Assembly (NCBI GenBank): GCA_947503525.1
Contig: CANNEA010000004.1
Location: 248,001 to 312,000 of the forward strand
Length of the DNA stretch: 64,000 bases
DNA from: an uncultured Carboxylicivirga sp.
GTDB taxonomy: Bacteria; Bacteroidota; Bacteroidia; Bacteroidales; Marinilabiliaceae
Direction of reading: 5' to 3'
This document shows positions 22,681 to 43,144 of this stretch, one piece after another (within the stretch, counting starts at the first letter, position 1; each line of letters opens with the position of its first letter). Under the pieces are notes generated by a model, which had not been told where the DNA came from, did no database searches, and saw only the letters and a program-made list of their open reading frames with translations. A program made the position numbers and the translations under genes.

Positions 22681-22745
22681 CAAATAAAATAAATCTATCC
22701 TGCGAGTGATTAGTTAAACTTATCTCCTTATTACAATATTTTACC
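22681..22745 (-). promoter_or_regulatory. Promoter with 21-bp-spaced operator half-sites, upstream of sulfatase 21244-22635
   Basis: Plus-strand coordinates: -7 box 22681-22688 (minus strand TTTATTTG), proximal half-site 22717-22724 (AACTTATC, degenerate), distal half-site 22738-22745 (ATTTTACC, inside TTACAATATTTTACCCC). Half-sites are 21 bp apart and the gap to the -7 box is 28 bp, exactly as at 31119-31183 and 43080-43144. Confidence 0.6.
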
Positions 22746-22919
22746 CCTGTTTAATATTTGTAAGCATCTGAAGAATATAGGCCGACACCCCTGTATGCTA
22801 AAGTATAATTGTGCTACTAATAATTTCACTTGACTCAGATTACTTAAAACAAGTTAAGCAACAATTCTAGAGTGTATACAGAATCTATTTAGTTTATAAA
22901 TAGTACAGGCTAAACAGTG

Positions 22920-24254
22920 CTAAAAGCCCAACAATTGCAACATCAATACGGCAAACATTCCAAACAAACCCATAATTAGAGATTGGACTGTAAAGGTTTT
23001 ATAAAGAATGGCTGGTGGCGCTTCATGAAGGCGGTTCAATAGCCAAAAGAAGCTTGAGTTAGCATGAAACACAATAAATGCACCTGCACCAATTAGCGCT
23101 GCAGCAATTTCTGGTGAAACCGGTAAACTATCAATCATCGGTCCTAACATTGAAGCTGTACCTACCAATGAAACAGTTATAGAACCTGTTGAAATGGTTA
23201 ATACGGAAGCAACGACAAAAGGAAGCATTATGCCCAAAAATGGAAACTCAGAAAAAACAGCAATAATATCATTCTGAATTCCCGTTTCTTTAATTACAAA
23301 TCCCAGGGAACCACCTGCACCGGTAATCATTATGACCAAAGCTGATTTTAGAATAGCTTGTTCTACTAATTTGTTAATTGTATTTTTTCGATTCTCTTTT
23401 TTAATTTGAAACCCGGCTAATATCGCACCAATTAATACTGCAACCATAGGTGAGGATACAAATAAAATCACCTTTGAAATAATTGTTTGTGATTCGAATT
23501 GAAAAAATGAACCTGAAGCTATTAGAAATATAGGCAGCAATATTGGTAATATATCTAAAAGAAAGTTTCCCTTCATTGCAGAATTCTGAGCACTTGCATC
23601 TACAACTGGGAATACAGTTTCCTTTAATTTTGTATCATAATCCAGCCATGAATTTTTTAGGTAAAGTTTAACCCAAAGTATACCCCCTGCCATTGCACTA
23701 CAAGCAACAATCGAATTTATGAATAGCATCCGTCCCATGTCGACATTTAATAATGCTGCTACAGCCATTGGCCCGGGAGTAGGCGGTATAAGCGTATGCG
23801 AAACAGTTAAACCCGCTGCTAATGATAATCCGACATACAGGATGGGCTTTTTACTTTTAACCGAAAGTGATTCAATAACAGGCTGAAGAAGAATATACGC
23901 TACATCTACAAAAACAGGAATTGAAATAAGGTAGCCGGTAAATCCCATCGCCCATGGCAATCTCTTTTGTCCAGCCCATTTTATAATTTTATCAGAGATA
24001 CGAAATGCTCCACCTGTTTCTTGTAATATCTCCCCAATAAATGCACCTAAGATTATAATAATTGCAATCCATCTTAAGGTTTCACTAAACCCTTTTAAAA
24101 GCACTTCAACAGTTTGCACTCCTCCCATTCCTGTTGCAATACCCAAAGCTAAAGCAATTAATATTAAAGCTATAAAGGGATGGAACTTCCATTTTGAGAT
24201 GGAAAGAATCAATAAGAATAAAAAAAATATTAGTATAGCTAGATTTACAAACAT
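22920..24254 (-). CDS. GntP-family sugar-acid:proton symporter
   Basis: 444-residue integral membrane protein of the gluconate permease family: about 12 hydrophobic segments, with the conserved GAFIGEILQETGGAFRISD and HTLIPPTPGPMAVA regions typical of GntP proteins. Such permeases import gluconate or other aldonic acids across the inner membrane. No other sugar-acid enzyme is adjacent; it stands alone between the sulfatase/GH127 unit and SusCD cassette 2. Its presence suggests that a carrageenan-derived sugar is oxidised outside the cytoplasm, possibly by the FAD oxidoreductases in this window, and imported as an acid. That link is inference. Confidence 0.85.
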   Translation of the reverse strand: MFVNLAILIFFLFLLILSISKWKFHPFIALILIALALGIATGMGGVQTVEVLLKGFSETLRWIAIIIILGAFIGEILQETGGAFRISDKIIKWAGQKRLPWAMGFTGYLISIPVFVDVAYILLQPVIESLSVKSKKPILYVGLSLAAGLTVSHTLIPPTPGPMAVAALLNVDMGRMLFINSIVACSAMAGGILWVKLYLKNSWLDYDTKLKETVFPVVDASAQNSAMKGNFLLDILPILLPIFLIASGSFFQFESQTIISKVILFVSSPMVAVLIGAILAGFQIKKENRKNTINKLVEQAILKSALVIMITGAGGSLGFVIKETGIQNDIIAVFSEFPFLGIMLPFVVASVLTISTGSITVSLVGTASMLGPMIDSLPVSPEIAAALIGAGAFIVFHANSSFFWLLNRLHEAPPAILYKTFTVQSLIMGLFGMFAVLMLQLLGF

Positions 24255-24276
24255 CGGTATAAATATTATTCACAAT

Positions 24277-24284
24277 CAAAAATA
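24277..24284 (-). promoter_or_regulatory. Candidate -7 box for GntP permease
   Basis: Minus strand reads TATTTTTG, a perfect TAnnTTTG, 23 bases before the start codon. The region above it lacks the ATTTTACC half-sites, so regulation may differ from neighbouring units. Confidence 0.4.
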
Positions 24285-24378
24285 GAGCATCAATTTAAAA
24301 CATAGTAAGTTCATAAATTCTTTCATAATAAGACGAAATAGTATCAACTTATTTTAGAATTAGTCTGGTATAAAAATA

Positions 24379-24471: not shown

Positions 24472-25908
24472 TTAAGGACGTGGTGCTATATCAACTTTTC
24501 TTAATCCCATGTCATCCAGATAGAAGGTTTGATCTCCTGTTACGCCTGGATTAACGCCTGCTTCTACATAATACGAGTATCGCATTTTATCAGAGTTATT
24601 ATAGGCAACCGGGAAGTTTATAACTTGCTTAATGGTAACCCATTCACCGCGCTTGATATTCTCAACATCCCATGTAGCAGAAACATCATCGGCCCAACCA
24701 TTGCCTTTTCTGGCAGTGGCTGTGCGAATAGCCTTAAGGTCTGAACCTTCTTCAATGTAAATTTTATGAGTTACTTCATAGGCTCCTGGCTCTGTATTTA
24801 CATTATCGCCAAAGCCCATACCAAACAAAATCTTATCATCAAAAGCCCCTGAGAAACTCATACTAGCTATTCCTGAAGCCATCATTTCAGTTGTGCGCAT
24901 CCATGGTAAACCACCGTTTCCAACCCAGTAGCCAGCAGCACCGCCGGCGTCAGCACCGCCTTCTCCTTCAAAACCTCCCCAAGAGTTTCCTGCTAATAGG
25001 TCATCGCCTGCAACAGGAATAGCTACATTTTGAGCATCAAATGATTTCATAGGCTGTTCATCAACTGATAGAATAGTATTACCTTCTTCATTGTAGGCAA
25101 TCGTGATTTTGTCATCAGCGTAAATTTCTTCAGCAAGTGTAAGCACTAACTGGGAAGAATTATCCGCAGCAATACTAATATCTGTGATTTCAAAATCCTT
25201 ATCTATAAATTTACCGGCATGCATAACATGAACCGTAAATCCGGTTAGTGGACTATCGCCCAGGCTTCCTACTTCACCCTTAACGTCAAAGGAAAACGAC
25301 ATTGCACCCGTCCATATCGCACTATTTTCAATAATACTTAATGGCACAACATCTCTTACATTAATCATTACCGTTTTTGAGGTTGCTCTATGGGTTGGCA
25401 CAGATGGTGTAAAATCAACTTTTAGTTCCTGATTCTCACCAAGAGGCAACACTGTACCAATTGCGGGTGTATACACAAATGTTCCTTCCACATCGGCAGT
25501 AGCATTTAATTGCTCTTCGCTTAATGGAGTTCCTTCAGAAAGAACAGCTGGATTTTCCCAGGTAATTACCGGAGTATACTTATCCACAATATTAATAGAG
25601 ACCTTTTTTGTAGTACTTGAATAGTTCTTAGTATCCCTAGGGGTAAATGTCGCAGTCAGTTCCTGGTTATCGCCCTTTGGTAAAACTGTACCTAAAGCAG
25701 GTGTGAAAACAATTGTTCCCGGAACATTTGCTGTAGCATTTAGCTGTGTTTTGGTCAATGGTAATCCTTCAACTAGTTCGGCAGGATCTTCCCATGTTAC
25801 AACCACTTCCTTTATCAATAATAATTCATCTTCCTTACAGCTGTTAACAGTTGTAACTAATAAACCAAGAATGAATATATTCAGGAATAATATTACTTTT
25901 TTCTTCAT
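24472..25908 (-). CDS. Surface glycan-binding lipoprotein, cassette 2, with two Ig-like repeats
   Basis: 478 residues, lipobox VNSC (C24). After the lipid anchor come two tandem repeats of about 80 residues (VTWEDPAEL...TALGTVLP-type and ITWENPAVL...), each with the pattern LNATA-x-V-x-GT followed by GTVLP; these resemble MBG/bacterial Ig-like spacer domains. The C-terminal 300 residues match the glycan-binding half of the cassette 1 protein (1910-3661), including YIEEGSD and RGEWVTIK, and end in RP. So a shared binding module sits on a different stalk. Third gene of cassette 2, 33 bases after SusD. Function inferred from position and homology within the window. Confidence 0.75.
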   Translation of the reverse strand: MKKKVILFLNIFILGLLVTTVNSCKEDELLLIKEVVVTWEDPAELVEGLPLTKTQLNATANVPGTIVFTPALGTVLPKGDNQELTATFTPRDTKNYSSTTKKVSINIVDKYTPVITWENPAVLSEGTPLSEEQLNATADVEGTFVYTPAIGTVLPLGENQELKVDFTPSVPTHRATSKTVMINVRDVVPLSIIENSAIWTGAMSFSFDVKGEVGSLGDSPLTGFTVHVMHAGKFIDKDFEITDISIAADNSSQLVLTLAEEIYADDKITIAYNEEGNTILSVDEQPMKSFDAQNVAIPVAGDDLLAGNSWGGFEGEGGADAGGAAGYWVGNGGLPWMRTTEMMASGIASMSFSGAFDDKILFGMGFGDNVNTEPGAYEVTHKIYIEEGSDLKAIRTATARKGNGWADDVSATWDVENIKRGEWVTIKQVINFPVAYNNSDKMRYSYYVEAGVNPGVTGDQTFYLDDMGLRKVDIAPRP

Positions 25909-25941
25909 TTTTTCAGTTTTTGAATTTTACAAATGCCTGTA

Positions 25942-27654
25942 TTAATATCCATAGTTCTGAATCATGTTAGGCGCCTTTTCAACTTCAGATTGTGGAATTG
26001 GCAAATAGTATTGTCTGTCCCACCAAGGGCGTGTAACAACAGTATACTCTTCAAAACTTAAACTTCCATCAGTCTTTTTTGTCCATTTCAAACCTTGCAC
26101 ATCAAAGCCAAGATGACTAACATTCATCCAACGACGTTCATCATAGAAGTTATGTCCTTCAAAACACAATTCAATGCGGCGTTCGCGTTTAATGGCTTCA
26201 AGTAATTCATTGCCTGAGGCTGTTATTTCAGGAAGTAAAGCCCTACTTGCTACCTTATTTAGGTACTTTCTGGCATCATCTTCATTTCCCTCATGATACA
26301 TTGCTTCGGCATAGTTTAAATATATCTCGGCCAAACGATACAGAATATATGGACGACCTGCAGAAATATCAGTTAAATCAGTTAGACTCTCATCATGGAA
26401 TTTTTTAATATTATACCCTGTTTTTGAAGAATGCAGTGCATTACCTAATCCTTGAGGAGAATCTAAACCATGAGGATAAGCATTAACATTCTCTGATAGA
26501 TAATATTGTACATCTCGTCCGCGAAATTGTGCTCCATTATAATTAAGTGTAGCATAGTAACGCATTTCACGTCCTTCATTAGGCTGCAAAGGATCAAATG
26601 AAGCTCCGGCAGTGCTTGTTCCATCTGCCATGTTATACTGTAATGAAAAATTGTGAGTTGGCGAAATCAATGCCCAACCACCGTATCCATTTGGACTTTG
26701 TGTCATATCAGGCAATGAGTTAACGTCTACTCCATAGTCATAGTATTCTGAATTAAAAGGTCGAGCAAAAATGATATCTTCATTTACAGACAAAAATAAT
26801 TCTTGATAAGCTGCAGCATCAGCTACAGAAATTAATTCACGATCGCTCACTGCATCAATTACAGCCTTAGCTGCATCAGCGGCATCTTTCCACTTAGTGG
26901 ATTTACTATACGAATAGAGTGCAGGATTCTCTGATGGTACATTAGCAGGATCGTGCAAATCACTAGCAGCATATAATAATGTACGTGATTTTACCGCCAA
27001 TGCTGCCAGGCTAGTTGCCCTACCAAACTCACCTTCCGGGCGTGTAGGAGGCAATACTGCAGCGGCTGCATCTAACTCTTCCACAATAAAATCAACACAA
27101 TCCTCATAGCTATCACGTACTAAATTAAAATCGTCCTCAAGGCCCAGGGCTCTTTTCATAATTGGTACACCACCGTAATTCTTAATTAATTTAGCATACA
27201 AATTAGCTCTTAGGAAACGCATTTCAGCCTTAAGTACATTAACTTTATCAGGATCAGCCTGCATTGCCGGGCTGTCATCAATTCGATCTAAAAATTCGTT
27301 AGTCAAACGTACATAGTCCCAGTAATTCCTCCATCTTTGAGCAAAAACACCAACATTACTTGTGGTCCAACCTGCCCTAACGCGATATAAATCAAGATCT
27401 TTAAAATTAAATTTTCCTTCAAATGATGCACCCTCAATGTTAAATCGGCGCGACCACCACTGGAAACGATTCATCCCCCAACTCTCTGTACTATTGTATG
27501 CCGTAAACACCAGGCGTTCTACCTGAACCGGATCACTATAGATTAAATCTTCTGCAAATGCATCCTTTGCTTCTGTTTCCAATACATCTTCACACCCTGT
27601 AAGTGCAACCAGTATCAGTGAGAAGAATAGAAATGCTATATTTATTTTTTTCAT
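25942..27654 (-). CDS. susD: SusD/RagB family outer-membrane lipoprotein, cassette 2
   Basis: 570 residues; lipobox ends at C21 (LTGC). SusD features are FLRANLYAKLIKNYGGVPI, RATSLAALAVKSRTLLYAASD, YLNYAEAMYHEGNEDDARKYLN and the closing RRIELCFEGHNFYDERRW block. It is a different SusD type from cassettes 1 and 3, which are alike. It pairs with the SusC upstream (gap 109 bases). The gap is longer than in the other cassettes, where it is 8 and 19 bases. Confidence 0.95.
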   Translation of the reverse strand: MKKINIAFLFFSLILVALTGCEDVLETEAKDAFAEDLIYSDPVQVERLVFTAYNSTESWGMNRFQWWSRRFNIEGASFEGKFNFKDLDLYRVRAGWTTSNVGVFAQRWRNYWDYVRLTNEFLDRIDDSPAMQADPDKVNVLKAEMRFLRANLYAKLIKNYGGVPIMKRALGLEDDFNLVRDSYEDCVDFIVEELDAAAAVLPPTRPEGEFGRATSLAALAVKSRTLLYAASDLHDPANVPSENPALYSYSKSTKWKDAADAAKAVIDAVSDRELISVADAAAYQELFLSVNEDIIFARPFNSEYYDYGVDVNSLPDMTQSPNGYGGWALISPTHNFSLQYNMADGTSTAGASFDPLQPNEGREMRYYATLNYNGAQFRGRDVQYYLSENVNAYPHGLDSPQGLGNALHSSKTGYNIKKFHDESLTDLTDISAGRPYILYRLAEIYLNYAEAMYHEGNEDDARKYLNKVASRALLPEITASGNELLEAIKRERRIELCFEGHNFYDERRWMNVSHLGFDVQGLKWTKKTDGSLSFEEYTVVTRPWWDRQYYLPIPQSEVEKAPNMIQNYGY

Positions 27655-27763
27655 GTGTCTAAATTTTAATATTTATTGGTCACATGGAACTCGCCACAGT
27701 TATCTTCCTATTATAAGAGAACCTTCACCATAGCTCGTTTCATTTCTTTATAATCTTATTATT

Positions 27764-30700
27764 CTAGAAAGTGAAATTAACACCTACAGTATATGTCTTC
27801 AAAGAAGGATATCTACTTCCACGGAAATTATTGTATCCTGCGGCTTCCGGATCTAAGCCCATTTTATGAACATCAGAAAACATTGTTAATAGGTTAAATC
27901 CTCTTACAAACAGTTTCAAATCACCTACTTTAATCTTATCCTTTTTAAAAGTATAACCTAAATCAACTTGTTTAAGTCTTAGGAAAGACGCATCATGCAA
28001 CCAAAAATCAGCACCTTGAAAATTTTCAGCTGAGCCACTTTGATTTCCGCTATAAGGATCTCCCTGAGCAAATGCTCTTGGGTATCTTGAATTACGATTA
28101 CTCGTTGTCCAGCGTTCGGTGAAAACATGTTCTGGTTTAGCACCTGACTGATCAAAGAAAACCAACATTTCAGCCTTAGCTTGACCTTGGAATAAGAAAT
28201 TAAAATCCCATCCACCATATTGTAATCCTCCATAAACACCGTACTGTATCTCTGGAACATTAGACGTAAATTTACGAATACGGTCATTGGAATCAATAAC
28301 ACCATCTCCATTTGTATCTACATAATAAGGCTCTCCTTCAACAGTACCTTCTAACTTTGCAGTGGCTGCATCAACTTGTTCCTGATCAGGGAAAATACCA
28401 AATGTTGGGTAAACAACATATGAATCCAAAGGACGACCTTCACGTTTCATTAACTCCGGTACATCAGCAGCTTCATCCATGTATACCACTTTATTTTTAG
28501 CATGGGTAAAATTGGCTCCAACATTGTAATTCACTCTACCAATTTTATCATTCCAATCCAACTGAAACTCCCAACCGAAATTATCTACCTTACCTAGGTT
28601 TTCATCTGGCAATTGCAGTCCGGCTGCATCAGGAATAGATGCTGTACGTTGAATCAGAATATCAGTTCTTTTCTGATAGAAATAGTTAACATCAGTGGTT
28701 AAACGGCGATCAAGAATCGTAAAATTAACACCTATATTTTTAGTATCTGCTGTTTCCCATGTTGCATTAGGATTTGGCACATTGTTACTTCGGTAGCCAT
28801 TGTATATAGTACTTCCAAAAATATAGGAATTAGGTTGAGTCCATTGCTTTACACCTGCGTTATTATATGGTCCACCGTAATCATAGCGTGTTAAATGTTG
28901 GAATGGTGGAATACGGTCGTTACCCATAATCGCCCAAGAAGCTCTCATTTTAAAGGTATTTAACCAACTATCAGTAAAGTCCATAAATGATTCATCAGCC
29001 AATGACCATGAAACAGCTACACCAGGGAATGTACCGAAACGTTTACCTTCTGCAAAATTACTTGATCCATCATGACGTAAAGTAAGATCTAAAAAGTATT
29101 TCTTTTTGTAGTCATATGAAATGGATCCAAAATAGTTTAAACGTGCCCACTCATATGCCACTCCCGACGATTGTTGGCCGTCATCACTACCTGCAAATAA
29201 CTCAGGGTGATCATTGGTTGGAAAGCCTCTACGCTCTGCCCAGAAAGTACGTGACTCTGAGGTCATCTGCTCGAATCCTACAAAACCTCTTATTGTATGG
29301 CTCTCAGCAAAAGTACGATCATAGTGAATTGTTGAATTCAACATGAGTTCATCATATTTCCAAAAACTTTCTCTTAAAATTCGCTGATTACCACGTTGAG
29401 AAAAACCATTAATAGCAACATATTCTTCAGTACCTTCTTGATATTGATAAACGGTCCAAGGCGTATACCACGATTTAATATCATTACTTTGCTTGCGAAT
29501 ACCTGCAAAACCTTTAATACTTAATCCATTTGTAATCCAATCTAAATCCCAGTCATAAGAGAATCGTCCCCGTAAATCATTCTCTGTACGGTCAACAAAA
29601 CCTGATTGATTGCTTGACATCACTAGAGGGTTGGCTCCGTTTTCTCCACCCCAACCTGGTAATCCATTAGGATACACACCAACTTCGGTTGGAAAGTTGG
29701 TATAAATGTGCTTATAAATATATGATTCATCTACACCTGGCTCTTTACGTTTACCAAAACGACCTGATAAATCAACTCCAAGTGTAAAATCTTTCCATAA
29801 TTTAATGTCAAGATTTGAACGCACCTGATATTGTTTAAACTTCAGATCACCAGAATCGTACATACCCACCTGATTGACATAATCGCCACTTACAAAATAT
29901 TTCACATTATCCGAGCCACCTGAAACCGAAACTGAAGTTCGAGACTCAGGAGAATAATCAGCAAAAGTTAAATCTGTCCAATTAGTGTTTGGATAACGAA
30001 TCGGATCACTTCCTGATTCATATAAGGCAATATCCTCATCTGTAAATGGTCGGTCTGTGCCGTTACGCTCTGCAATTTCATTCTCATATACAGCAAACTG
30101 TGACGAACTCATAGGCTTAGGAATAGCCGAGAAACTGGACATATTGTATGTTGATGAAATATTAAATGTTGGCTTACCAGACTTACCTCTTTTGGTTGTA
30201 ATTAATATTACACCATTAGCAGCACGAGCTCCATAAATGGCAGCAGCACCATCTTTTAATACAGTTAAGGATTCAATATCGTTTGGAGCTAAATGTGAAA
30301 ATGTAGCTGCCGTAACTCCATCAATTAAGATCAAAGGCGAGTTGTTACCTAATGTTGATTTACCTCTAATCAACAGTGTCATATTATCCGTTTCACCAGG
30401 ATATCCACCTCGGTCAGAAATAATTAAACCAGGTACTTTACCAGATAAAGACTTCGCTAAATCCTGACTTGATGTTCGCTGTAACTCTTCTGTTTTTACT
30501 GTACTAATTGATCCGGTTACTTCACCCTTTTTACGAGTTGTATATCCAATAGCTACAACTTCGTCAAGACCAATTGTGCTGCTCTCGAGTGTAATATTGA
30601 TAACGGACTGATTGCCAACCAAAATTTCTTGTGTTGTCATTCCAACAAAAGACACCACAATTGTTGCGTCAACCGGAACATTTGCAAGCGTATAGTGACC

Positions 30701-30937
30701 ATCTAAATCAGTTATTGTACCAACAGTCGTTCCTTTAATAGAAACAGTAACACCTGGTAACGAAATCCCTTCAGTGTCAATAACAGTTCCACTTATTGTT
30801 GTCTCTTGAGCAAAAACGTTTGAGAGGTTAACAAATAAGCATAAAAAGGTAACCATACACAACCTAAGTATGTATGTACTATTAACGCCATACAATTTAG
30901 GTACATTACCTTTAAACTTAAAAATCAATGATTTTTT
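27764..30937 (-). CDS. susC: SusC/RagA TonB-dependent outer-membrane transporter, cassette 2
   Basis: About 1057 residues from the ATG at 30937 (MKKSLIFKFK), preferred over an upstream in-frame ATG at 30979 because it gives a compact signal sequence ending NVFAQ. Carboxypeptidase-D regulatory-like domain (GTVIDTEGISLPGVTV, ITDLDGHYTL), SusC signature DEVVAIGYTTRKKGEVTGSI, plug with LIRGKSTLGNNSPLILIDG and ANGVILITTKRGK, then the barrel ending VGVNFTF. It is the divergent member of the three SusC proteins and probably imports a different fragment class. Transcribed from the conserved promoter at 31119-31183 with a long leader holding a GC-rich hairpin. Confidence 0.96.
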   Translation of the reverse strand, partial: KKSLIFKFKGNVPKLYGVNSTYILRLCMVTFLCLFVNLSNVFAQETTISGTVIDTEGISLPGVTVSIKGTTVGTITDLDGHYTLANVPVDATIVVSFVGMTTQEILVGNQSVINITLESSTIGLDEVVAIGYTTRKKGEVTGSISTVKTEELQRTSSQDLAKSLSGKVPGLIISDRGGYPGETDNMTLLIRGKSTLGNNSPLILIDGVTAATFSHLAPNDIESLTVLKDGAAAIYGARAANGVILITTKRGKSGKPTFNISSTYNMSSFSAIPKPMSSSQFAVYENEIAERNGTDRPFTDEDIALYESGSDPIRYPNTNWTDLTFADYSPESRTSVSVSGGSDNVKYFVSGDYVNQVGMYDSGDLKFKQYQVRSNLDIKLWKDFTLGVDLSGRFGKRKEPGVDESYIYKHIYTNFPTEVGVYPNGLPGWGGENGANPLVMSSNQSGFVDRTENDLRGRFSYDWDLDWITNGLSIKGFAGIRKQSNDIKSWYTPWTVYQYQEGTEEYVAINGFSQRGNQRILRESFWKYDELMLNSTIHYDRTFAESHTIRGFVGFEQMTSESRTFWAERRGFPTNDHPELFAGSDDGQQSSGVAYEWARLNYFGSISYDYKKKYFLDLTLRHDGSSNFAEGKRFGTFPGVAVSWSLADESFMDFTDSWLNTFKMRASWAIMGNDRIPPFQHLTRYDYGGPYNNAGVKQWTQPNSYIFGSTIYNGYRSNNVPNPNATWETADTKNIGVNFTILDRRLTTDVNYFYQKRTDILIQRTASIPDAAGLQLPDENLGKVDNFGWEFQLDWNDKIGRVNYNVGANFTHAKNKVVYMDEAADVPELMKREGRPLDSYVVYPTFGIFPDQEQVDAATAKLEGTVEGEPYYVDTNGDGVIDSNDRIRKFTSNVPEIQYGVYGGLQYGGWDFNFLFQGQAKAEMLVFFDQSGAKPEHVFTERWTTSNRNSRYPRAFAQGDPYSGNQSGSAENFQGADFWLHDASFLRLKQVDLGYTFKKDKIKVGDLKLFVRGFNLLTMFSDVHKMGLDPEAAGYNNFRGSRYPSLKTYTVGVNFTF

Positions 30938-31118: not shown

Positions 31119-31183
31119 CAAAGTAGATTATAATTTAAGGAAAAGAACTGGCGAATTTTAACCTTTGATTACATTATTTTACC
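31119..31183 (-). promoter_or_regulatory. Promoter with 21-bp-spaced operator half-sites, upstream of SusC cassette 2
   Basis: -7 box 31119-31126 (minus strand CTACTTTG), proximal half-site 31155-31162 (ATTTTAAC), distal half-site 31176-31183 (ATTTTACC within TTACATTATTTTACCCT). Spacing 21 bp between half-sites and 28 bp to the -7 box, identical to the two sister promoters. The AraC gene lies directly next to it. Confidence 0.6.
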
Positions 31184-31272: not shown

Positions 31273-32130
31273 TTATAAGCTATTTCTGAAGTTATTAGGT
31301 GTCACTCCCATTATCTGCTTAAACTGCTTATTAAAGTTAGTGATGGAGTTATAACCAACTTTGTAACATACATCAGATACAGGTAAGTCATCTTGTGCCA
31401 GCAAGCGAGATGCATTACGAATACGAACCTCATTTAAAAACTGCACATATGACTTATTGGTCATCTTCTTGAAGAAACGACAGAAAGAATTAGTAGTCAT
31501 GCATGCTACATCAGATACATCCTGAAGGCTTATATCATTTGCATAATTATTCGATATATATTTCAACACATCATCGAGGCGTTCAGAATTATCGGTTGTA
31601 TACTGTCGCATATCAGTTGAGGATAGTACTTTTTTATCCTCTGTTAATGATAGTCGACACAACAGATCAAGCAATTTTACCGACTGCTCTGCTGGTGTTA
31701 GTTCAATGATACTGATAAAATCGTTATGTAACATTCTACTCACATCACGACCAAACGAAACGCCATACTTCGACTGTTCAAGCATTAGATTCAAATCATG
31801 AAACTCGGGTAAATTAAAGGTGCCTTCACCAATAAAATCCTTGGTAAATTTCAGAATGATGGTTTTAACCTTATTTGTATCATCTTCGCTGTAGTACGAT
31901 GGATCGTTCCGCCAGAGGTGCGGAAGATAAGGACCAACAAGCACCAAATCTCCTGGGTGAAATTGAGAAACACTGTCGCCAACAAACCGAATACCATTAC
32001 TTTTAGAAATATAAAGCAGTTCATATTGCGCATGATAATGCCATGAAGAATCTAAACAAGGAATTTCCTTTTTAGTAATATCCACACGCTCATTTTTAAA
32101 GCTATCAGTATTTTTAAGAATCAATTTCAT
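31273..32130 (-). CDS. AraC-family transcriptional regulator
   Basis: 285 residues. N-terminal cupin-like sensor domain (about 1-110) with HYHAQYELLYI and PGDLVLVGPYLPHLW, then a linker, and a C-terminal double helix-turn-helix at about 183-285 with the AraC signature VCYKVGYNSITNFNKQFKQIMGVTPNNFR. No signal peptide, so cytoplasmic. The sensor probably binds a mono- or disaccharide from carrageenan. It is the only regulator in the window, next to one of three promoters with 21-bp-spaced repeats, a spacing typical of AraC half-sites; it is the best candidate activator of this locus. A TAAATAA-N11-TACATAA element precedes it, so autoregulation is possible. Confidence 0.93.
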   Translation of the reverse strand: MKLILKNTDSFKNERVDITKKEIPCLDSSWHYHAQYELLYISKSNGIRFVGDSVSQFHPGDLVLVGPYLPHLWRNDPSYYSEDDTNKVKTIILKFTKDFIGEGTFNLPEFHDLNLMLEQSKYGVSFGRDVSRMLHNDFISIIELTPAEQSVKLLDLLCRLSLTEDKKVLSSTDMRQYTTDNSERLDDVLKYISNNYANDISLQDVSDVACMTTNSFCRFFKKMTNKSYVQFLNEVRIRNASRLLAQDDLPVSDVCYKVGYNSITNFNKQFKQIMGVTPNNFRNSL

Positions 32131-32391: not shown

Positions 32392-32411
32392 CTCTCTTTA
32401 TACTTTGTTAC

Positions 32412-32741
32412 TTAATTTGATATCTCCATAAACTCTACCGGTGAGCCATTATGAATTATAAAGGCTACACGTACGCCTTCTCCCGGAGAAAATGTTTCAA
32501 CTAATATTTCCTTACCTTCAATGGCTTCCTCAATGTTATCAACCTGATAAGCGATGTGTGCAACTTTTTGAAACATTTCAGGCATTGGACTGTTTTCATC
32601 GCACTTTATCCACTCTACACCAAACTCATCGTTAGCAAAGTCAGTATAATGAATTTTTCCTGGCTCATAAAAACCATCCCATTGTTTCTCTTCGCTAGTT
32701 GGAATTCCAATATGGCTAAACTTATATTTTATCTCTTCCAT
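32412..32741 (-). CDS. Small VOC/glyoxalase-superfamily protein
   Basis: 109 residues, no signal peptide, so cytoplasmic. The opening YKFSHIGIPT and the later KVAHIAYQVDNIEEAI, then VAFIIHNGSPVEFMEI, match the beta-alpha-beta-beta-beta pattern of vicinal-oxygen-chelate proteins, with His and Glu in likely metal positions. It begins 10 bases after the GH2 gene and ends at the terminator 32361-32391, so the two are co-transcribed. VOC proteins include glyoxalases, epimerases and isomerases; a role in handling a reactive anhydrosugar or aldehyde is a guess. Confidence 0.7.
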   Translation of the reverse strand: MEEIKYKFSHIGIPTSEEKQWDGFYEPGKIHYTDFANDEFGVEWIKCDENSPMPEMFQKVAHIAYQVDNIEEAIEGKEILVETFSPGEGVRVAFIIHNGSPVEFMEISN

Positions 32742-32751
32742 TTTGTCTAAT

Positions 32752-35988
<3,237 letters not shown>

Positions 35989-36004
35989 TTAACAATTCAA
36001 AAAA

Positions 36005-36041
36005 AAGGTTTAAACTGGAGCATTCGCCAAGTTTAAACCTT
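36005..36041 (-). terminator. Rho-independent terminator after sulfatase 36058-37512
   Basis: Perfect 12-bp stem (36005-36016 with 36030-36041), 13-base loop and eight T residues on the minus strand. It lies in the 81-base gap before GH2 and ends the operon that begins at 43057. Confidence 0.9.
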
Positions 36042-36057
36042 ACTAACTACATTTATT

Positions 36058-37512
36058 TTAATCCAACTGAAAGGTCTTTTCAAACTGAGGCATATTATCG
36101 TCGCGCCAATCGATACCTGTAGCTTTATCGTGAAACCAATGTGGTTGCTGATGCGTTTGACTCCATTGTTCAGCTTCAATAACCAAAGCTTTCAATATTT
36201 CAGGATGAGTATCACTTAAGTCCAAATCCTCACTCATATCTTCAACAATATTAAAGAGTTTCCATGGTTCCTGGTTTACTTTAAGCGCTTTCCACTCGTT
36301 TAGTCTTACTCCAACATCGGTGTATCCCACCCGATGCCTTAAACAATAAATCATATCATCATCATGTGGATTTTCTCCGGCTTTGATATCGTCCCAGATA
36401 TCTAAACCATCTAATTTTTTGTTTTCAGGAATACTTGCCCCTGCCAACTTTGCAAAGGTGGGGTAAAAATCGATGGCTAAAATTGGATGTTCAAAAACTT
36501 GACCTTTTTGTAATTGATCGGGCCAATGGAAAAACATAGGAACACGGTATCCTCCTTCATGGGTGCTTCCTTTACCTTCTTTTAAAGGATAATTATTGGC
36601 TCCTTTAGAAACTTTACCTCCATTATCGCTTAAAAACACAATTAAAGTATTGTCATACTCACCAGTTTGTTTCAAAGCATCGACCAATTGTTTTACTCCA
36701 CGATCAACCGCGTAAACCATACCGGCATAGGTTCTTCTATCCTGATCTTTAATATCAGCAAATAGAGCCATATCCTCCTCTTTTGCTTCCAATGGAACAT
36801 GAGGAGCGTTATAGGCTAGATATAAAAAGAATGGATCATCTTTTTTAGCCCCTTCTTTAACAAACTGTACTGCTTCTCGAGATAAAGCATCTGTTATGTA
36901 TTCTGTTTCTTGAACTTCCTTACCATTGCGTTCCAAGGGCAATAAGTATTCAAAAATGACTTTCTTACCTGCCTTCTTTTGTTTTTCATATATGACTCTA
37001 TACTCCTCTGGAAAATACTTATGACCACCACCTAGAAAACCATAATACTCATCAAACCCTCTGTTATTAGGATGAAAGGCCTCAACAGATCCTAAATGCC
37101 ATTTACCAATAGCCCCTGTATAATAACCAGCATCCTGAAGCACAGAACTTATGTACTTCTCGTTTAAATCAATGCCTTTGCCAATGGTTTCTGAGTTTGG
37201 CGGCAAATTAAACTGTGCTCCTATTTTATGAGGATATCTACCTACCATCAAGCCCGCGCGGCTTGGGCCACAAAATGGATGAATCACATACGCTGAAGTA
37301 AATTTCATTCCTTCATTGGCTAATTGATCCAAGGCTGGCGTTTTTATATCAGTTGATCCATTAAAACCAACATCAGCGTAACCTAAGTCATCACACATAA
37401 CAACCACAATATTGGGTCGTGGAGCTTCTGCCTTATCAATTCTAGTTGAACAAGCTACGAATGACAGCAATAAACTAACGGCTAATGTACATGTTCCTAA
37501 TTTCATTTTCAT
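36058..37512 (-). CDS. Sulfatase, S1 family (probably S1_19)
   Basis: 484-residue lipoprotein sulfatase; lipobox SFVAC with C21. Formylglycine motif [11 protein letters not shown] at C81, calcium ligands in MCDDLGYADVG, GKWHLGSVEAFHPNNRGFDEYYGF, and FLSDNGGKVSKGAN. The CGPSRAG motif and following blocks resemble S1_19 enzymes that desulfate kappa/iota-carrageenan galactose-4-sulfate; the subfamily is inferred. It is the last gene of the anhydrogalactose operon, 8 bases after the kinase, an unusual placement of a periplasmic enzyme behind cytoplasmic ones that ties desulfation to monomer catabolism. Confidence 0.93.
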   Translation of the reverse strand: MKMKLGTCTLAVSLLLSFVACSTRIDKAEAPRPNIVVVMCDDLGYADVGFNGSTDIKTPALDQLANEGMKFTSAYVIHPFCGPSRAGLMVGRYPHKIGAQFNLPPNSETIGKGIDLNEKYISSVLQDAGYYTGAIGKWHLGSVEAFHPNNRGFDEYYGFLGGGHKYFPEEYRVIYEKQKKAGKKVIFEYLLPLERNGKEVQETEYITDALSREAVQFVKEGAKKDDPFFLYLAYNAPHVPLEAKEEDMALFADIKDQDRRTYAGMVYAVDRGVKQLVDALKQTGEYDNTLIVFLSDNGGKVSKGANNYPLKEGKGSTHEGGYRVPMFFHWPDQLQKGQVFEHPILAIDFYPTFAKLAGASIPENKKLDGLDIWDDIKAGENPHDDDMIYCLRHRVGYTDVGVRLNEWKALKVNQEPWKLFNIVEDMSEDLDLSDTHPEILKALVIEAEQWSQTHQQPHWFHDKATGIDWRDDNMPQFEKTFQLD

Positions 37513-37520
37513 TTCTTTTT

Positions 37521-38615
37521 TTATCGCACCACACGACCTGATCCGGATCCACCCATTAAGGCTTCCACTTCAGAGCGTGAAGAATAATTAAAGTCACCAT
37601 TTATCGAATGACATAAGCAAGAAGCTGCTACAGCAAAACGAATCGCTTGGTCTGGTTTTGACAATTCAGGTGTATTTAAGGCAAATACTAAGCCGGCGCC
37701 AAAAGAATCACCTCCACCAACACGATCAACTATCGCCTTTATTTCATAGGGCATATATTCCCCTTGCCCATTTAAAGGTGCAAAATGAGCCGTATCAGTT
37801 GTTGCATCATACAACATAGCACCCCAATTATTATGAGTGGCTGATAGACTCTCGCGTAAGGTGATTGCCACTTTCTTTACATTCGGAAATTGCTTTACAA
37901 TCTCCTTTGCTACATCAAGGTACTTATCTATATCTAACTGCCCTCCTTCAATATCCGTATCGCCGGCAGAGATTCCTAATACATCATGTGCATCTTCTTC
38001 ATTGGCAATTACAACATCAACAAATGGTAAAATAGCACGCATCGTTTTTTCAGCCAAAACATTTGCGGCTGTACCATTTTGCCATTGCCAAAGTTTTTTT
38101 CTGAAATTCAAATCGCACGAAACAGTCAAACCTTTTTCTTTAGCAGTTCGAACAGCTACCTCTGTGGCATGTGCTGAAACTTCAGATAAAGCAGGTGTGA
38201 TACCAGTAGTATGCAACCAAGCTCCATCTTTCAGCAATTCACACCAGTCGTATGCTTCGCCCTTTGTCATTGACACTGCAGAATAGTCACGATCGTACAT
38301 TACACGACTTGGACGCTGATTAGCACCACGTTCAACGAAGTATAAACCAAAACGACCATAATCAGTAAGTTTAATTCCTGATGTATCTACATCGATTCCT
38401 TTAAGCACTTGCAAACAAGCTTCAGTCATTTCATTATCAGGCAAAGCAGTAACAAAACGTACTTTACCGCCTAGCATGGCAATTGAAGAAGCTACATTAG
38501 CTTCAGCTCCTGCGAAAGTCATATCCAACTTCCCTGGCATACTCTGACGAAAGCGCTGAAAGTTTTCAGGACATATACGCCCCATTATTTCTCCGAATGT
38601 TATAATTGTTTTCAT
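37521..38615 (-). CDS. dauC: 2-keto-3-deoxy-galactonate kinase (PfkB family)
   Basis: 364-residue cytoplasmic PfkB/ribokinase-family kinase. N-terminal GEIMGRICPEN is the sugar-binding start typical of 2-keto-3-deoxy-gluconate kinases; DRVGGGDSFGAG carries the catalytic base D303 and the anion hole. In the anhydrogalactose route it phosphorylates 2-keto-3-deoxy-galactonate to the 6-phosphate. It lies between the aldolase (44 bases) and a sulfatase (8 bases). The name dauC follows the Zobellia carrageenan regulon nomenclature as I recall it; substrate stereochemistry is inferred from context. It could equally act on 2-keto-3-deoxy-gluconate. Confidence 0.88.
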   Translation of the reverse strand: MKTIITFGEIMGRICPENFQRFRQSMPGKLDMTFAGAEANVASSIAMLGGKVRFVTALPDNEMTEACLQVLKGIDVDTSGIKLTDYGRFGLYFVERGANQRPSRVMYDRDYSAVSMTKGEAYDWCELLKDGAWLHTTGITPALSEVSAHATEVAVRTAKEKGLTVSCDLNFRKKLWQWQNGTAANVLAEKTMRAILPFVDVVIANEEDAHDVLGISAGDTDIEGGQLDIDKYLDVAKEIVKQFPNVKKVAITLRESLSATHNNWGAMLYDATTDTAHFAPLNGQGEYMPYEIKAIVDRVGGGDSFGAGLVFALNTPELSKPDQAIRFAVAASCLCHSINGDFNYSSRSEVEALMGGSGSGRVVR

Positions 38616-38659
38616 GATTTTAGGTTCTAGCTACCAGCAGTTAGCATCTGGTACTTATG

Positions 38660-39334
38660 TTATATATTACGAATCTCCTTAATTAAAGTGTGTATTTCTC
38701 TGGCATTACGTGTTATTAATTCCCAGTTTTCATCGAGTATCATATTGCGCTTTGCAATCCACGATCCGCCAATGGCAGTTATTAATGGCGATTCCAAATA
38801 CGTTCTGGCATTCGCCATATTACATCCGCCTAATGGAATGAATTTAAGATCAAGGTATTGATAAGGTGCCACCATGCTTTCCAGATGTGCCATACCTCCA
38901 GAAGTTTCAGCAGGAAAAAGTTTTAAAACCCGACAGCCTTCATGGATTGCCATTTCAATATCTGTTGGTGTCATTATACCAGGGGCAAAATCTAAGCCTT
39001 GCTTACGTGCCTCTGCTATTACCTTAGGGTTACAACCAGGAGCTACTGCAAAATCAGCACCAACATCTACCACAGCCTTAACCTGTTCGGTAGACAAAAC
39101 AGTTCCAAAACCAAGCGTTATTTCAGGCACTTCTTTTTTGATTGCCTTAGCAGCTTCGATAGCAACTGGTGTGCGTAGCGTTAATTCAATGGCATCGACA
39201 CCTCCGGCCAATAAGGCCTTTGCCAAAGGCACAGCATGTTTAACTTGGTCTACCACTAACACGGCCATTACTCCAGCGTCATCAATACGCTTTATCATTT
39301 CAGGCCCCATAGCCTGCTTATCAAATGTGTACAT
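38660..39334 (-). CDS. dauD: 2-keto-3-deoxy-6-phosphogalactonate aldolase (KDPG aldolase family)
   Basis: 224-residue class I aldolase. Schiff-base lysine K138 in RVLKLFPAE; catalytic Glu E50 in GVDAIELTLRTP; phosphate-binding GGCNMANA and GGSWIA near the C-terminus. It splits the 6-phospho keto-acid into pyruvate and D-glyceraldehyde-3-phosphate, completing the anhydrogalactose pathway. It lies between the aldehyde dehydrogenase and the kinase, in the same operon. Specificity for the galacto epimer rather than KDPG is inferred. Confidence 0.92.
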   Translation of the reverse strand: MYTFDKQAMGPEMIKRIDDAGVMAVLVVDQVKHAVPLAKALLAGGVDAIELTLRTPVAIEAAKAIKKEVPEITLGFGTVLSTEQVKAVVDVGADFAVAPGCNPKVIAEARKQGLDFAPGIMTPTDIEMAIHEGCRVLKLFPAETSGGMAHLESMVAPYQYLDLKFIPLGGCNMANARTYLESPLITAIGGSWIAKRNMILDENWELITRNAREIHTLIKEIRNI

Positions 39335-39423
39335 TTTCTTAGATTATAGATTAATAGATGATTAGATAATGGTCAAACTTACGACTCCACAAACAAAACC
39401 TCTAATCAGCTATAATTCAAACA

Positions 39424-40860
39424 CTACAATGCTGTTGAAATACGTTTCTTAACCAAATAGTCGTTAAGAGCAAGGTATGAGCAATCGTGCCCAATTCCAC
39501 TTTCTTTTATACCTCCATGGGGAAGATAGATGGCGTACTTAACACCATTCACTTGCACTTCTCCAAACATTAATTCTTCTGATACTTTACGAATAACAGA
39601 TTGATCGTTGGAAAATAAGTAGGAAGCCAAACCATACTCGGTATCATTTCCTAAATCAATGGCTTCTTCAACAGTAGAGTACTTCATCATAGCAGCAACA
39701 GGTCCGAAAATTTCTTCACGAAAACAACGGCTATCTCGTTTAATACCAGAAAGTATAGTTGGTTCAATGTAAAATCCTTTAGCAAAACCTTCAGGAACTT
39801 TACCGCCCATTACCAATTCAACACCAGATGCCACATCATCGGCCACCATTTTCAACACTCGTTCCTGATCGCGCTTGGTCACCAAAGGTCCCATATCAGG
39901 CTTTTCTTCAATCCCAAAACCTATTTTAAGTGCTTTGGCCTTAGCTGTAAATATATCTAAGAATGTATCATAAACCTCTTCATGAACCAGAAAACGATTA
40001 GGAGATACACATATCTGACCTGAATTACCATATTTTAAGGCAACTCCCAATGTTGCAGCTAATTCTAAATCAGCATCCTTATGAACAATAAATGGTGCAT
40101 TACCACCAAGTTCAAGACTAACATGCTTAACGGTTGTTGCCGAATCTGCAATAACTCGTTTACCAGAAGCTGATGAACCAATCATGGTTAACACCTTTGG
40201 TATAGGACTCTTTGTCATGGTAGTTGCGACTTCGCTAACAGGCCCACTAATAACATTAATAACACCTGCAGGAAAGTTGATACTTTCAGCTATCTCTCCC
40301 ACTAAATAAGCCGAAATTGGTGATAATTCAGAAGGCTTAATAACGATCGAACAACCAGCTGCTAAAGCAGGTCCAATCTTATAGCCTACATTCAGCAATG
40401 GGAAATTCCAGGCTAAATAAGCAACAGCCACACCAACTGGTAAATTAACTATCTGATGATGATGCGTATTTTCCGAATCAGGAATAATTTCATCGTGCAT
40501 ATTTTTCATGGCTTGCGGATAAAACTCTAAACCATCTGCCAGTAATTCCACATCTTCAGCAGCCCCTTCATAGGTTTTACCCATTTCATAAACCACGGCT
40601 TTTCTCAATTCATCTTCACGTTTTAATATTTCGGCGCGAAGTTTCATCATCCATTCGGTACGTTCTTTAAGTGGCAACTTTGACCATACCTTAAAACCCT
40701 TTTGTGCTTCAATTAAAGCTAATTCAGCATCTTCCTTTTGGGCATAAGCAATAGAACCAACAGCTTCTTCTATAGCTGGGTTAATAATATCCTTCTTGGC
40801 TCCTGAGATGGCATCAACTAACTTGCCACCTATATACATTTTCTTATATCCGAAATTCAT
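39424..40860 (-). CDS. dauA: 3,6-anhydro-D-galactose dehydrogenase (ALDH family)
   Basis: 478-residue NAD(P)-dependent aldehyde dehydrogenase. Catalytic Cys C284 in GNSGQICVSPNRF, general base E250 in LELGGNAPF, oxyanion Asn N152 in AWNFP, and cofactor lysine K175 in IVIKPSE. In carrageenan and agar users an ALDH of this type oxidises the open-chain aldehyde of 3,6-anhydrogalactose to anhydrogalactonate. Neighbours supply the next three steps, which makes this role much likelier than a generic aldehyde dehydrogenase. D rather than L stereochemistry is inferred from the GH127/GH16 context. Confidence 0.88.
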   Translation of the reverse strand: MNFGYKKMYIGGKLVDAISGAKKDIINPAIEEAVGSIAYAQKEDAELALIEAQKGFKVWSKLPLKERTEWMMKLRAEILKREDELRKAVVYEMGKTYEGAAEDVELLADGLEFYPQAMKNMHDEIIPDSENTHHHQIVNLPVGVAVAYLAWNFPLLNVGYKIGPALAAGCSIVIKPSELSPISAYLVGEIAESINFPAGVINVISGPVSEVATTMTKSPIPKVLTMIGSSASGKRVIADSATTVKHVSLELGGNAPFIVHKDADLELAATLGVALKYGNSGQICVSPNRFLVHEEVYDTFLDIFTAKAKALKIGFGIEEKPDMGPLVTKRDQERVLKMVADDVASGVELVMGGKVPEGFAKGFYIEPTILSGIKRDSRCFREEIFGPVAAMMKYSTVEEAIDLGNDTEYGLASYLFSNDQSVIRKVSEELMFGEVQVNGVKYAIYLPHGGIKESGIGHDCSYLALNDYLVKKRISTAL

Positions 40861-40877
40861 ATGATTATTTTTTTATT

Positions 40878-42005
40878 TTACTTACAAAAACTTTTAAAAG
40901 CATCCTCATCAATAGTAACGCCTAAACCGGGTTTATCTGAAACTTTAATTTCTCCATTCTTGACCTCGAAATCCGGAATGGTAACTTGATCTCTAAGATC
41001 ATTATCAGTTCGATCATGTTCCATCCAGAAGTTTGAATTGAACATACGGCCAGGCACATTATCCAAGTTACTAATAAAATGCATAGCCGCCGAAATCGCA
41101 ATGTAGGTACCCCAACTATGAGGAACAATTTCTTTACCATAGGTGGAAGCTAAGGTTGATATTTTCTTCACTTCGGTAAGACCACCACAAGCGGCTATAT
41201 CTGGCTGAGCAATATCTACAGCGTTGCTTCTTAATAATTGGTGAAATCCATATCGTAAATATTCACATTCCCCACCTGCAATTGGAATTGTTGTTGCATT
41301 TCTTAATTCCGCATATTGAGAATAAAACTCTGGTGATACAGGTTCTTCAAACCATCCAATGTCATATTCTTCAATAGCCTTTGAAAGTTTTACGGCTTCG
41401 CGCAAATTATAGGCATGATTAGAATCAACCATCAGTTCCATATCATCACCAATCGCTTTTCTTACCTCACGCACCATCTCAATATCCTTTTCAATGGTCA
41501 TACCGACCTTCATCTTAACCGCCTTATATCCTAGTTCTTTATACTCAATAGCTTCATCAGCCAGAGCCTTTGGCAAGTTCTTTTCTTCTCTGAAGTATAA
41601 ACCTGTAGCGTATGGTGTTATTATATCTCTTTTTTTACCACCTAACAATTGATGTACTGGCACATTCAAAATCTTTCCTTTGACATCCCATACAGCCATA
41701 TCAATTGCACTTATAGCGGCTACCAAAATACCTCGGCGAGCATAATCCAAAGAGCGGCGATACATTACATCCCAAATGGTCTCATTATCTAATGGATTCA
41801 TACCAATTACATATTGCGACAATAACTTTACGCCAGCTGCCAAAACATCTGCGGGCCCGTATCCTTCCCCCCATCCGACTACACCTTCGTCAGTACTTAA
41901 CTTCACCAAACATATTTTTCGCTCACTATATGACCATTGAGAAAAATAAAATGGCTTATCCAACTTATCATTTAATACAAAGACCTCTATAGATTTTATT
42001 TTCAT
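40878..42005 (-). CDS. dauB: 3,6-anhydro-D-galactonate cycloisomerase (enolase superfamily)
   Basis: 375 residues from the ATG at 42005 (MKIKSIEVFV); an in-frame GTG at 42029 is less likely. Mandelate racemase/muconate lactonizing enzyme subgroup: KMK bases K164 and K166, metal ligands D194 (VDSNH), E220 (WFEEP) and E246 (GGECE), and the opposite His H296 (PHSWG). Opening of the anhydro ring of 3,6-anhydrogalactonate to 2-keto-3-deoxy-galactonate is the known reaction of such enzymes in red-algal sugar pathways. The ALDH follows 17 bases downstream. D-galactonate dehydratase is the alternative; context favours cycloisomerase. Confidence 0.88.
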   Translation of the reverse strand: MKIKSIEVFVLNDKLDKPFYFSQWSYSERKICLVKLSTDEGVVGWGEGYGPADVLAAGVKLLSQYVIGMNPLDNETIWDVMYRRSLDYARRGILVAAISAIDMAVWDVKGKILNVPVHQLLGGKKRDIITPYATGLYFREEKNLPKALADEAIEYKELGYKAVKMKVGMTIEKDIEMVREVRKAIGDDMELMVDSNHAYNLREAVKLSKAIEEYDIGWFEEPVSPEFYSQYAELRNATTIPIAGGECEYLRYGFHQLLRSNAVDIAQPDIAACGGLTEVKKISTLASTYGKEIVPHSWGTYIAISAAMHFISNLDNVPGRMFNSNFWMEHDRTDNDLRDQVTIPDFEVKNGEIKVSDKPGLGVTIDEDAFKSFCK

Positions 42006-42037
42006 TTTTTCCAGTATCAAGTTTATCACTCATATTC

Positions 42038-43057
42038 CTAGCCAACTGTATTGGAATATCCTATTACGATCATTCCTATACAAATGACTACTACGCCAAA
42101 CATTAACCAGCCAAATGGTTTTTTAGCACCAGTCCACTCTTTATTGAAGTATGCCCAAACATTACTAACAATTAAGCCCCCACCCATAAGAATTGGCCAA
42201 CCTATTACCGAGCCCATATTACCCATTAAAGTAGCTCCTTGGCCATATACTCCAAGGGCACCAAACCAACACAGAGCAGCTACAATAGACCACATATATG
42301 CTTTGCCTGATTTAGCCTCATTAAAGGAATTCCAACTTTTATTTTTAAACAATAGAAATACAGCATATATAGCATTTAGGATAAATGCCCCCCACAATAC
42401 AACAACCCAAATAGCCAAACTACTATTACGCGCTGTTGCTCCAGCTTCCTGAGCAAAATATCCTATTCCACTACCTTCTGCAAAACCTGCGTCAAAACCA
42501 ATTCCTAGGAAAGCAGAAAAGAATCCACTCAAAACAGCAATTATAAGACCTGCTTTAAGGTTGATCTTTTTACCTTCTTCTTGCTTACTTTGTTTATCTC
42601 GTAAGATACCAGCATATGCAGTTAAAGCTACACCAATTACCATAACAATAACGCCTCCCAATACATACGGCAAAGCAGCCGCATTAGGATCATCTTTCAT
42701 AAAGTATGGAATAAGACTGCCTGCTGCAGCACATAAGCCTAGCACAATACCATAGGTTAATGACATGCCGATATAAGGAACACTTTTACCAAACATTATA
42801 CCTCCGATCCCCCACACTGCTCCAAATATCATGGCCAGGATTTTAATATCAAGAGGAGCCTGAGCAATGCTATGAAATAGGTCAGGCACAACAATTAACG
42901 CCCATGCTGTTGGTAATATAATCATCGCAAACAACGAGTGGACTAACCACCAGGCTTCCCACTTAAGTGGAGCCATAAACTTCATTCCAAGACCAAATGA
43001 GCCCTGAAAAAGGGTCGCAAATAAGACTAATGCTAAAGGTAAAAATTCAAATTCCAT
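42038..43057 (-). CDS. RhaT-like sugar:proton symporter
   Basis: 339 residues from the ATG at 43057 (MEFEFLPLAL); the upstream in-frame ATG at 43093 adds a charged tail and is less likely. About ten hydrophobic segments. GLGMKFMAPLKWEAWWLVHSL and AVWGIGGIMFG match the L-rhamnose-proton symporter family. As first gene of the anhydrogalactose operon it is the best candidate for importing 3,6-anhydro-D-galactose into the cytoplasm. The operon lacks rhamnose isomerase, kinase or aldolase genes, so true rhamnose transport is unlikely. Confidence 0.85.
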   Translation of the reverse strand: MEFEFLPLALVLFATLFQGSFGLGMKFMAPLKWEAWWLVHSLFAMIILPTAWALIVVPDLFHSIAQAPLDIKILAMIFGAVWGIGGIMFGKSVPYIGMSLTYGIVLGLCAAAGSLIPYFMKDDPNAAALPYVLGGVIVMVIGVALTAYAGILRDKQSKQEEGKKINLKAGLIIAVLSGFFSAFLGIGFDAGFAEGSGIGYFAQEAGATARNSSLAIWVVVLWGAFILNAIYAVFLLFKNKSWNSFNEAKSGKAYMWSIVAALCWFGALGVYGQGATLMGNMGSVIGWPILMGGGLIVSNVWAYFNKEWTGAKKPFGWLMFGVVVICIGMIVIGYSNTVG

Positions 43058-43079
43058 GCTTATATACTTTTGATTAATA

Positions 43080-43144
43080 CAAAGAAATGACATGTATCAC
43101 TGAATTAATTTGCTGATTTTACCTAGTACTTACATTATTTTACC
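43080..43144 (-). promoter_or_regulatory. Promoter with 21-bp-spaced operator half-sites, upstream of the anhydrogalactose operon
   Basis: -7 box 43080-43087 (minus strand TTTCTTTG), proximal half-site 43116-43123 (ATTTTACC), distal half-site 43137-43144 (ATTTTACC within TTACATTATTTTACCCC). Both half-sites are perfect here; spacings of 21 and 28 bp match those at 22681-22745 and 31119-31183. Confidence 0.65.

Follow-up and report, generated by a model that had tools for sequence, protein, structure and literature searches.

Predicted operators of a CgrA-type AraC-family activator in a carrageenan-type locus of an uncultured Carboxylicivirga

The carrageenan-type locus and its three gapped repeats

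Here, we analysed a 64,000-nucleotide stretch of the genome of an uncultured Carboxylicivirga sp. (assembly GCA_947503525.1, contig CANNEA010000004.1, positions 248,001 to 312,000), hereafter called the window, in which three promoters share one gapped direct repeat at a fixed distance from the -7 box. Judged by sequence comparison, the three repeats are very likely operators of a class-II-type activator of a regulon for carrageenan, a sugar of red seaweeds, namely the CgrA-type AraC-family protein encoded at 31273-32130.

The genes concerned lie on the minus strand and were assigned with Pfam scans, which took in 37 of the 48 open reading frames (ORFs) of at least 100 amino acids in the window. 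One unit (15153..22635) consists of an S1 sulfatase (21244-22635), two GH127 enzymes, which by their family would both be of the 3,6-anhydrogalactosidase type, and a second sulfatase. An outer-membrane uptake unit, SusCD cassette 2 (24472..30937), comprises SusC (27764-30937), SusD (25942-27654) and an Ig-like protein, and presumably plays a cgtA/cgtB-like role. The regulator gene (31273..32130) encodes a cupin sensor domain and two helix-turn-helix motifs. The anhydrogalactose operon starts with a RhaT-like sugar symporter (42038..43057), the likely counterpart of ZGAL_3157. For this gene we prefer the start at 43057 over the ATG at 43093, because the latter would enclose the -7 box (43087-43080) in the gene. 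The remainder of this probable operon (32412..42029), in which the genes are closely spaced, encodes a DauB-like enolase family protein, a DauA-like aldehyde dehydrogenase, a DauD-like KDPG aldolase and a DauC-like PfkB kinase, along with an S1 sulfatase, a GH2 protein and a 109-amino-acid protein of unknown kind. The Dau names were derived from the protein families and the gene list given in PMC5698469. The locus also includes a GntP permease, three SusCD pairs, a GH16 and a GH110-type protein. Among the 37 scanned ORFs, the protein encoded at 31273-32130 is the sole regulator, in agreement with the first-pass annotation, which had regarded this AraC-type gene as the only one in the window.

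At all three sites the coding (minus) strand follows the pattern GGTAAAATAWTGTAA-N6-GNTAANNT, a 21-bp direct repeat, the full sites being GGTAAAATATTGTAATAAGGAGATAAGTT (22745-22717), GGTAAAATAATGTAATCAAAGGTTAAAAT (31183-31155) and GGTAAAATAATGTAAGTACTAGGTAAAAT (43144-43116). On the plus strand, the distal half-site ATTTTACC starts at 22738, 31176 and 43137, and the proximal half-site starts 21 bp lower (22717, 31155 and 43116). In each promoter, 28 bp lie between the proximal half-site and the Bacteroidota -7 box, and the TTTG of this box follows the first G of the operator by exactly 61 bp on the minus strand. These coordinates and the 21/28 spacing had been proposed in the first-pass annotation, and all of them were confirmed when the window was read again. 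Predicted operator 1 (22717..22745; GGTAAAATATTGTAA-TAAGGA-GATAAGTT) has a degenerate proximal half-site, GATAAGTT at 22717, and is followed by the -7 box TTTATTTG (22681..22688) and a predicted start at about 22676. Predicted operator 2 (31155..31183; GGTAAAATAATGTAA-TCAAAG-GTTAAAAT) lies 89 bp past the stop codon of the regulator gene, with the -7 box CTACTTTG at 31119..31126 and a predicted start at about 31114. Predicted operator 3 (43116..43144; GGTAAAATAATGTAA-GTACTA-GGTAAAAT) is paired with the -7 box TTTCTTTG (43080..43087) and a predicted start at about 43075. All three -7 boxes deviate from a perfect TAnnTTTG; the starts were placed by setting this motif to -12 to -5 (PMC9723704).

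The predicted leader of SusC cassette 2 (30935-31112, minus strand; about 177 nt) folds better than its shuffles (z -2.9) and contains a GC-rich hairpin, GCAGGAAAGCG/CGCTTCCCTGC, about 45 nt ahead of the start. An Rfam search of the whole window returned nothing at gathering score.

The gapped pattern matched three times in the window and never in 100 dinucleotide shuffles. In the whole genome (6,556,515 bases), allowing up to three mismatches, ten matches were obtained, namely the three operators with none and seven others with three mismatches, compared to 11 for a reversed control pattern. The 15-base distal part alone gave six genome matches with at most one mismatch, the three operators being exact, versus seven for its control.

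Recurrence of the sites beside cgrA orthologues

CgrA (ZGAL_3159) and induction by carrageenan are known from Zobellia galactanivorans (PMC5698469). As described there, anhydrogalactose induces ten genes of the polysaccharide utilisation locus (PUL), dauD responds to carrageenan and not to anhydrogalactose alone, a cgrA deletion strain grows poorly on carrageenans, and CgrA belongs to the core carrageenan system of Bacteroidetes clades 1 and 2. The window resembles the Zobellia regulon in having a carrageenan PUL that brings together genes for anhydrogalactose catabolism, GH127 enzymes, sulfatases and a regulator of the AraC family, but differs from it in that SusCD genes lie inside the PUL, as the same source reports for other Bacteroidetes. 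Term searches of its main text turned up no operator, direct repeat or start site, and we found no published CgrA operator in the literature searched.

The regulator encoded in the window consists of 285 amino acids, for which Pfam gave a helix-turn-helix match and a weak cupin match and, in contrast to a hybrid two-component system, no kinase or receiver domain. It has the architecture of the AraC/XylS family, with a double helix-turn-helix domain at the C-terminus and, as in AraC, a cupin ligand domain with dimer helices at the N-terminus. It stands clearly apart in sequence from other AraC proteins and lies in a carrageenan PUL, which marks it as a CgrA orthologue, the likeness to ZGAL_3159 being one of family and PUL context rather than of direct sequence comparison. 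In an alignment of the window protein with 28 of the 59 orthologues described below, an HxH...E...H set in the cupin domain (H31, H33, E37, H71) is invariant across all 29 sequences; the domain may thus bind a metal.

Clear orthologues were present in four of 71 family genomes besides the own genome (76-87% identity), all others listed reaching at most 40%. A scan of named genomes yielded 61 loci, 59 of them orthologous at 60% identity or more, from 57 assemblies, two of which contribute two loci each. The hosts include Labilibacter, Saccharicrinis, Flexithrix, Echinicola, Algoriphagus, Lutibacter, Tenacibaculum, Polaribacter, Flavobacterium, Aquimarina and Saprospiraceae, among others. These loci were searched with a matrix derived from 13 sites within the own family, including the three of the window, which fixes the 21-bp spacing and excludes the TTTG. 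At 16 bits or more it found 100 positions in the 59 loci (1,060,724 bases), whereas neither of two dinucleotide shuffles gave any; lowering the threshold to 14 bits gave 129 positions, versus four and two in the shuffles. The 27 control loci (134,659 bases; L022-L046 plus L125 and L127, 27-29% identity, not orthologues) had one position at 16 bits. When the three loci from genomes used in training (L067, L068 and L124) were omitted, 126 held-out sites of at least 14 bits remained, in 53 of 56 loci, some of them from close relatives and hence not independent.

The logo of the held-out sites reads GGTAAAATAATGTAA-N6-GGTAAATTT. TTTG stands at +61 in 87 of the 126, the runner-up offset counting nine, and the -33 region has no conserved TTG, columns 37 to 49 being near background. 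Although coding sequence makes up 87% of the loci, all but three sites (123) fall outside it, and for 119 a gene begins on the same strand no more than 520 bp downstream. A count made independently of the matrix, covering GGTAAWWT...GGTAA pairs 9 to 60 bp apart in the 56 loci, gave a distance of 21 bp for 78 of 128 pairs, no other distance being represented more than four times. In 11 extra loci from ten genomes outside the first set, the matrix found 24 matches of at least 14 bits, in 10 of the 11 loci, and 14 of these matches have TTTG at +61. Across the family, a search with up to two mismatches gave 13 matches in the five genomes with an orthologue (control 4) and 10 in the 66 genomes without one (control 16).

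Some sites carry a TTTACA- or TTTAG-like box instead of TTTG at +61, perhaps a weaker variant of the -7 box. Exact 7-mer repeats of any sequence outside known sites are also most frequent at 21 bp (49, followed by 37 at 15 bp); they occupy 24 places, several of which are GGTAA pairs missed by the matrix (L087, L099, L102, L110, L112). A wider repeat count (101 at 21 bp) was not used, as it consisted mostly of opposite-strand re-readings of GGTAA sites left by a one-strand mask. In three genomes of Flavobacteriaceae (G071, G073, G704), a second cgrA-like gene with 58% identity to the window protein starts about 1, 10 and 2 kb, respectively, from the first.

From the held-out sites, we built a sequence-only model, A1. 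It contains 65 sites, those scoring 17 bits or more with TTTG at +61, identical sites being entered once; all come from other genera and none from the own family. TTTG is invariant in A1 by selection and is therefore not counted as evidence. On the whole genome, A1 found the three operators at E = 5.4e-10, 8.0e-9 and 7.3e-8, the next match following at 0.046; on the window with filters off, the values were 5.3e-12, 7.8e-11 and 7.2e-10, with the next at 0.18. The three operators are thus the sole strong matches in 6.56 Mb. The concern raised in the first-pass annotation, that the gapped motif might be equally frequent elsewhere in the genome, is not borne out by the genome scans. The fourth A1 match (E = 0.046) looks like the site of an AraC paralogue.

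The sites are also linked to the regulator gene itself. Among 57 loci with room for it, 38 have a site of at least 14 bits within 220 bp past the end of cgrA, and in 13 of the other 19 a relaxed G[GAT]TAA pair with 21-bp spacing lies no further than 330 bp away. For 129 sites (three from a training genome), the next gene was labelled by its best match to the window proteins; these labels are in part weak, and a gene without a label may intervene. SusC of cassette 2 (17), the sulfatase at 21244 (13), GH127 (12) and other SusC (10) were most frequent, followed by DauB (8), DauD (8, two at only 26-27% identity), the sulfatase at 36058 (8), the symporter (5) and GntP (5). For 25 sites the next ORF had no match among the window proteins, and for five no ORF was in reach.

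A proposed mechanism and its alternatives

Taking the sites, their spacing, genome-wide specificity, conservation and linkage to cgrA as found in this analysis, together with the fold prediction, we propose how binding, activation, start sites and inducer may fit together. Two CgrA subunits would sit head to tail on one face of the DNA, one on each half of the 21-bp direct repeat and separated by two helical turns. The distal half-site GGTAAAATAATGTAA would offer box 1 (GGTAA) and box 2 (TGTAA), and the proximal half-site an identical box 1. Given how far away the -7 box lies, the half-sites would start at about -69 and -48 and the bound pair would span about -69 to -32. These starts would lie within a few bases of those of araI1 and araI2 of E. 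coli, from which we infer class II activation: the proximal subunit would occupy the position of the -33 element and recruit RNA polymerase with the primary sigma factor in the manner of AraC. By sequence, two hallmarks of a class II promoter are present, direct half-sites about 21 bp apart and a proximal half-site that adjoins the polymerase site at fixed distance with no -33/-35 element. E. coli AraC at araI1-I2 responds to another inducer and binds half-sites of another sequence, and the -10 element of that system is replaced here by the Bacteroidota -7 box (TAnnTTTG). The cupin domain probably binds 3,6-anhydro-D-galactose, or a closely related product of carrageenan breakdown, as the inducer, which would turn on uptake (SusCD), the desulfation and anhydrogalactosidase steps (sulfatase/GH127) and anhydrogalactose catabolism.

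Two ideas of the first-pass annotation are strengthened by the comparison of genomes. The recurrence of the sites beside cgrA orthologues, at fixed spacing to the -7 box and with no conserved TTG, argues for an AraC-type operator in place of the -33 element, and the comparative evidence points to one regulon uniting the sulfatase/GH127 unit, SusCD cassette 2 and the anhydrogalactose operon.

But might a different regulator bind the three sites? In the alternative that survives best, which we nevertheless consider improbable, this would be a hybrid two-component sensor or an AraC paralogue encoded outside the window, cgrA being a mere neighbour. The hybrid sensors of Bacteroides use direct-repeat motifs averaging 21 bp (PMC3878776), and those of B. 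thetaiotaomicron share with our case the AraC-type DNA-binding domains and the setting in Bacteroidetes PULs. They are membrane proteins, however, unlike the 285-amino-acid cupin-AraC protein found here, where the register of the -7 box is moreover fixed at +61. As for paralogues, the own genome encodes six further AraC-type proteins (30-38% identity, E up to 1e-40), and the sites of some have the same core and geometry. Yet these sites differ in box 2, and the best one in the own genome scores 17.3 bits under the CgrA model, compared to 35.8-42.6 for the three operators. The sites also track cgrA orthologues, in 53 of the 56 held-out loci, and adjoin the gene in 38 of 57, whereas the 66 family genomes without cgrA have no excess over the control.

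It is less probable still that CgrA binds the sites and chiefly represses transcription or loops the DNA without inducer. AraC itself does both, but the fixed spacing to the -7 box and the lack of a conserved -33 TTG suggest that these promoters need an activator. In Zobellia, deletion of cgrA lowers growth, although the behaviour of the mutant on solid media reportedly points to regulation of a complex kind (PMC5698469). Finally, chance or mobile or duplicated AT-rich sequence has next to no likelihood as the origin of the repeats: their flanks are AT-rich, but the shuffles yielded none, the repeat boxes and the -7 box are conserved with columns near background between them, and the target genes differ from locus to locus.

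Several observations do weigh against the sites being CgrA activator operators as proposed. TTTG is missing at exactly +61 in 39 of the 126 held-out sites, five of the 59 loci have no 14-bit site (including L124, a locus with 20 kb of sequence from a training genome), and in six of 57 even the relaxed pattern yields nothing in the 330 bp that follow cgrA. One of the 27 control loci around AraC paralogues has a site too, so that the motif is not wholly exclusive to CgrA orthologues. Z. galactanivorans, the species with RNA-seq data, was not identified in overlapping draws of 397, 338 and 393 genomes (the latter two with a completeness limit), seven of which were inspected for gene order, or in the 61-locus scan, and may have been missed there. 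Other species have sites before dauD-led operons (six at 69-78% identity), which do not fit anhydrogalactose alone as inducer because Zobellia dauD does not respond to it; the inducer may differ.

Paralogue sites and a possible general code

Some AraC paralogues (37-39% identical) share the 21/61 geometry with a differing second box. With the core G[GAT]TAA, this geometry was found at three of 25 paralogue loci (up to 1.5 kb on each side; L024, L027, L030), and most paralogue loci examined have no such site. A second set of 23 larger loci (382,710 bases), which overlaps the first in part, gave six occurrences, compared to a mean of 0.16 over all 462 spacing combinations and a next best of three; here, L178 re-reads the L027 match, L180 was chosen for the genome's fourth-best A1 match, and L189 and L190 are near-identical. 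The six sites are L179:6764 and L180:12223 (own genome, contig 8), L178:6862, L189:9777, L190:8336 and L198:10424 (minus-strand count). The first lies directly after a paralogue gene and the second ahead of a SusC gene. Box 2 reads GTGGTCA in three, GAGCTCA in one and CTGGTTA in the last two, versus TGTAA for CgrA. Between CgrA and four such paralogues, the first recognition helix is alike and the second different (SITNFNKQFK versus SLTSFNRVFK). A shared box 1 with a regulator-specific box 2 would fit this comparison in the few cases at hand.

A separate 21-bp direct repeat, TAACCCATAAGT / TTACCCATAAGT, lies at 53707-53739 (minus strand) at the start of the GH110-type ORF 51743-53686, with TTTG 60 bp from its own start. 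It is unrelated to the three operators, has no other match in the own genome with as many as three mismatches allowed, and perhaps represents the operator of another AraC-type or hybrid regulator. As this TTTG falls just within the longest ORF (GTG at 53686), the true gene start is probably further down.

We advance, as a possibility that we would not yet call probable, a general promoter rule for the soluble cupin-AraC clade of Bacteroidota: GDTAA-N16-GDTAA-N35-TTTG would be fixed, and the distal box 2, read by the second helix-turn-helix, would carry the identity of the regulator. If the rule is true, targets could be predicted genome-wide from geometry and a short code.

The carrageenan regulon and CgrA (PMC5698469) as well as repeats of about 21 bp for hybrid sensors (PMC3878776) were described before, and the present analysis adds a predicted definition of the operator. 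Regulation of polysaccharide degradation in the sea is less well known than the enzymes involved. The carrageenan regulon thereby gains an explicit predicted operator, a promoter register and a candidate regulator, and the operator model can serve to compile the members of the regulon across dozens of marine Bacteroidota. The promoters of this phylum are unusual, and the sites would add one more case to those in which an activator site stands where the -33 element would be.
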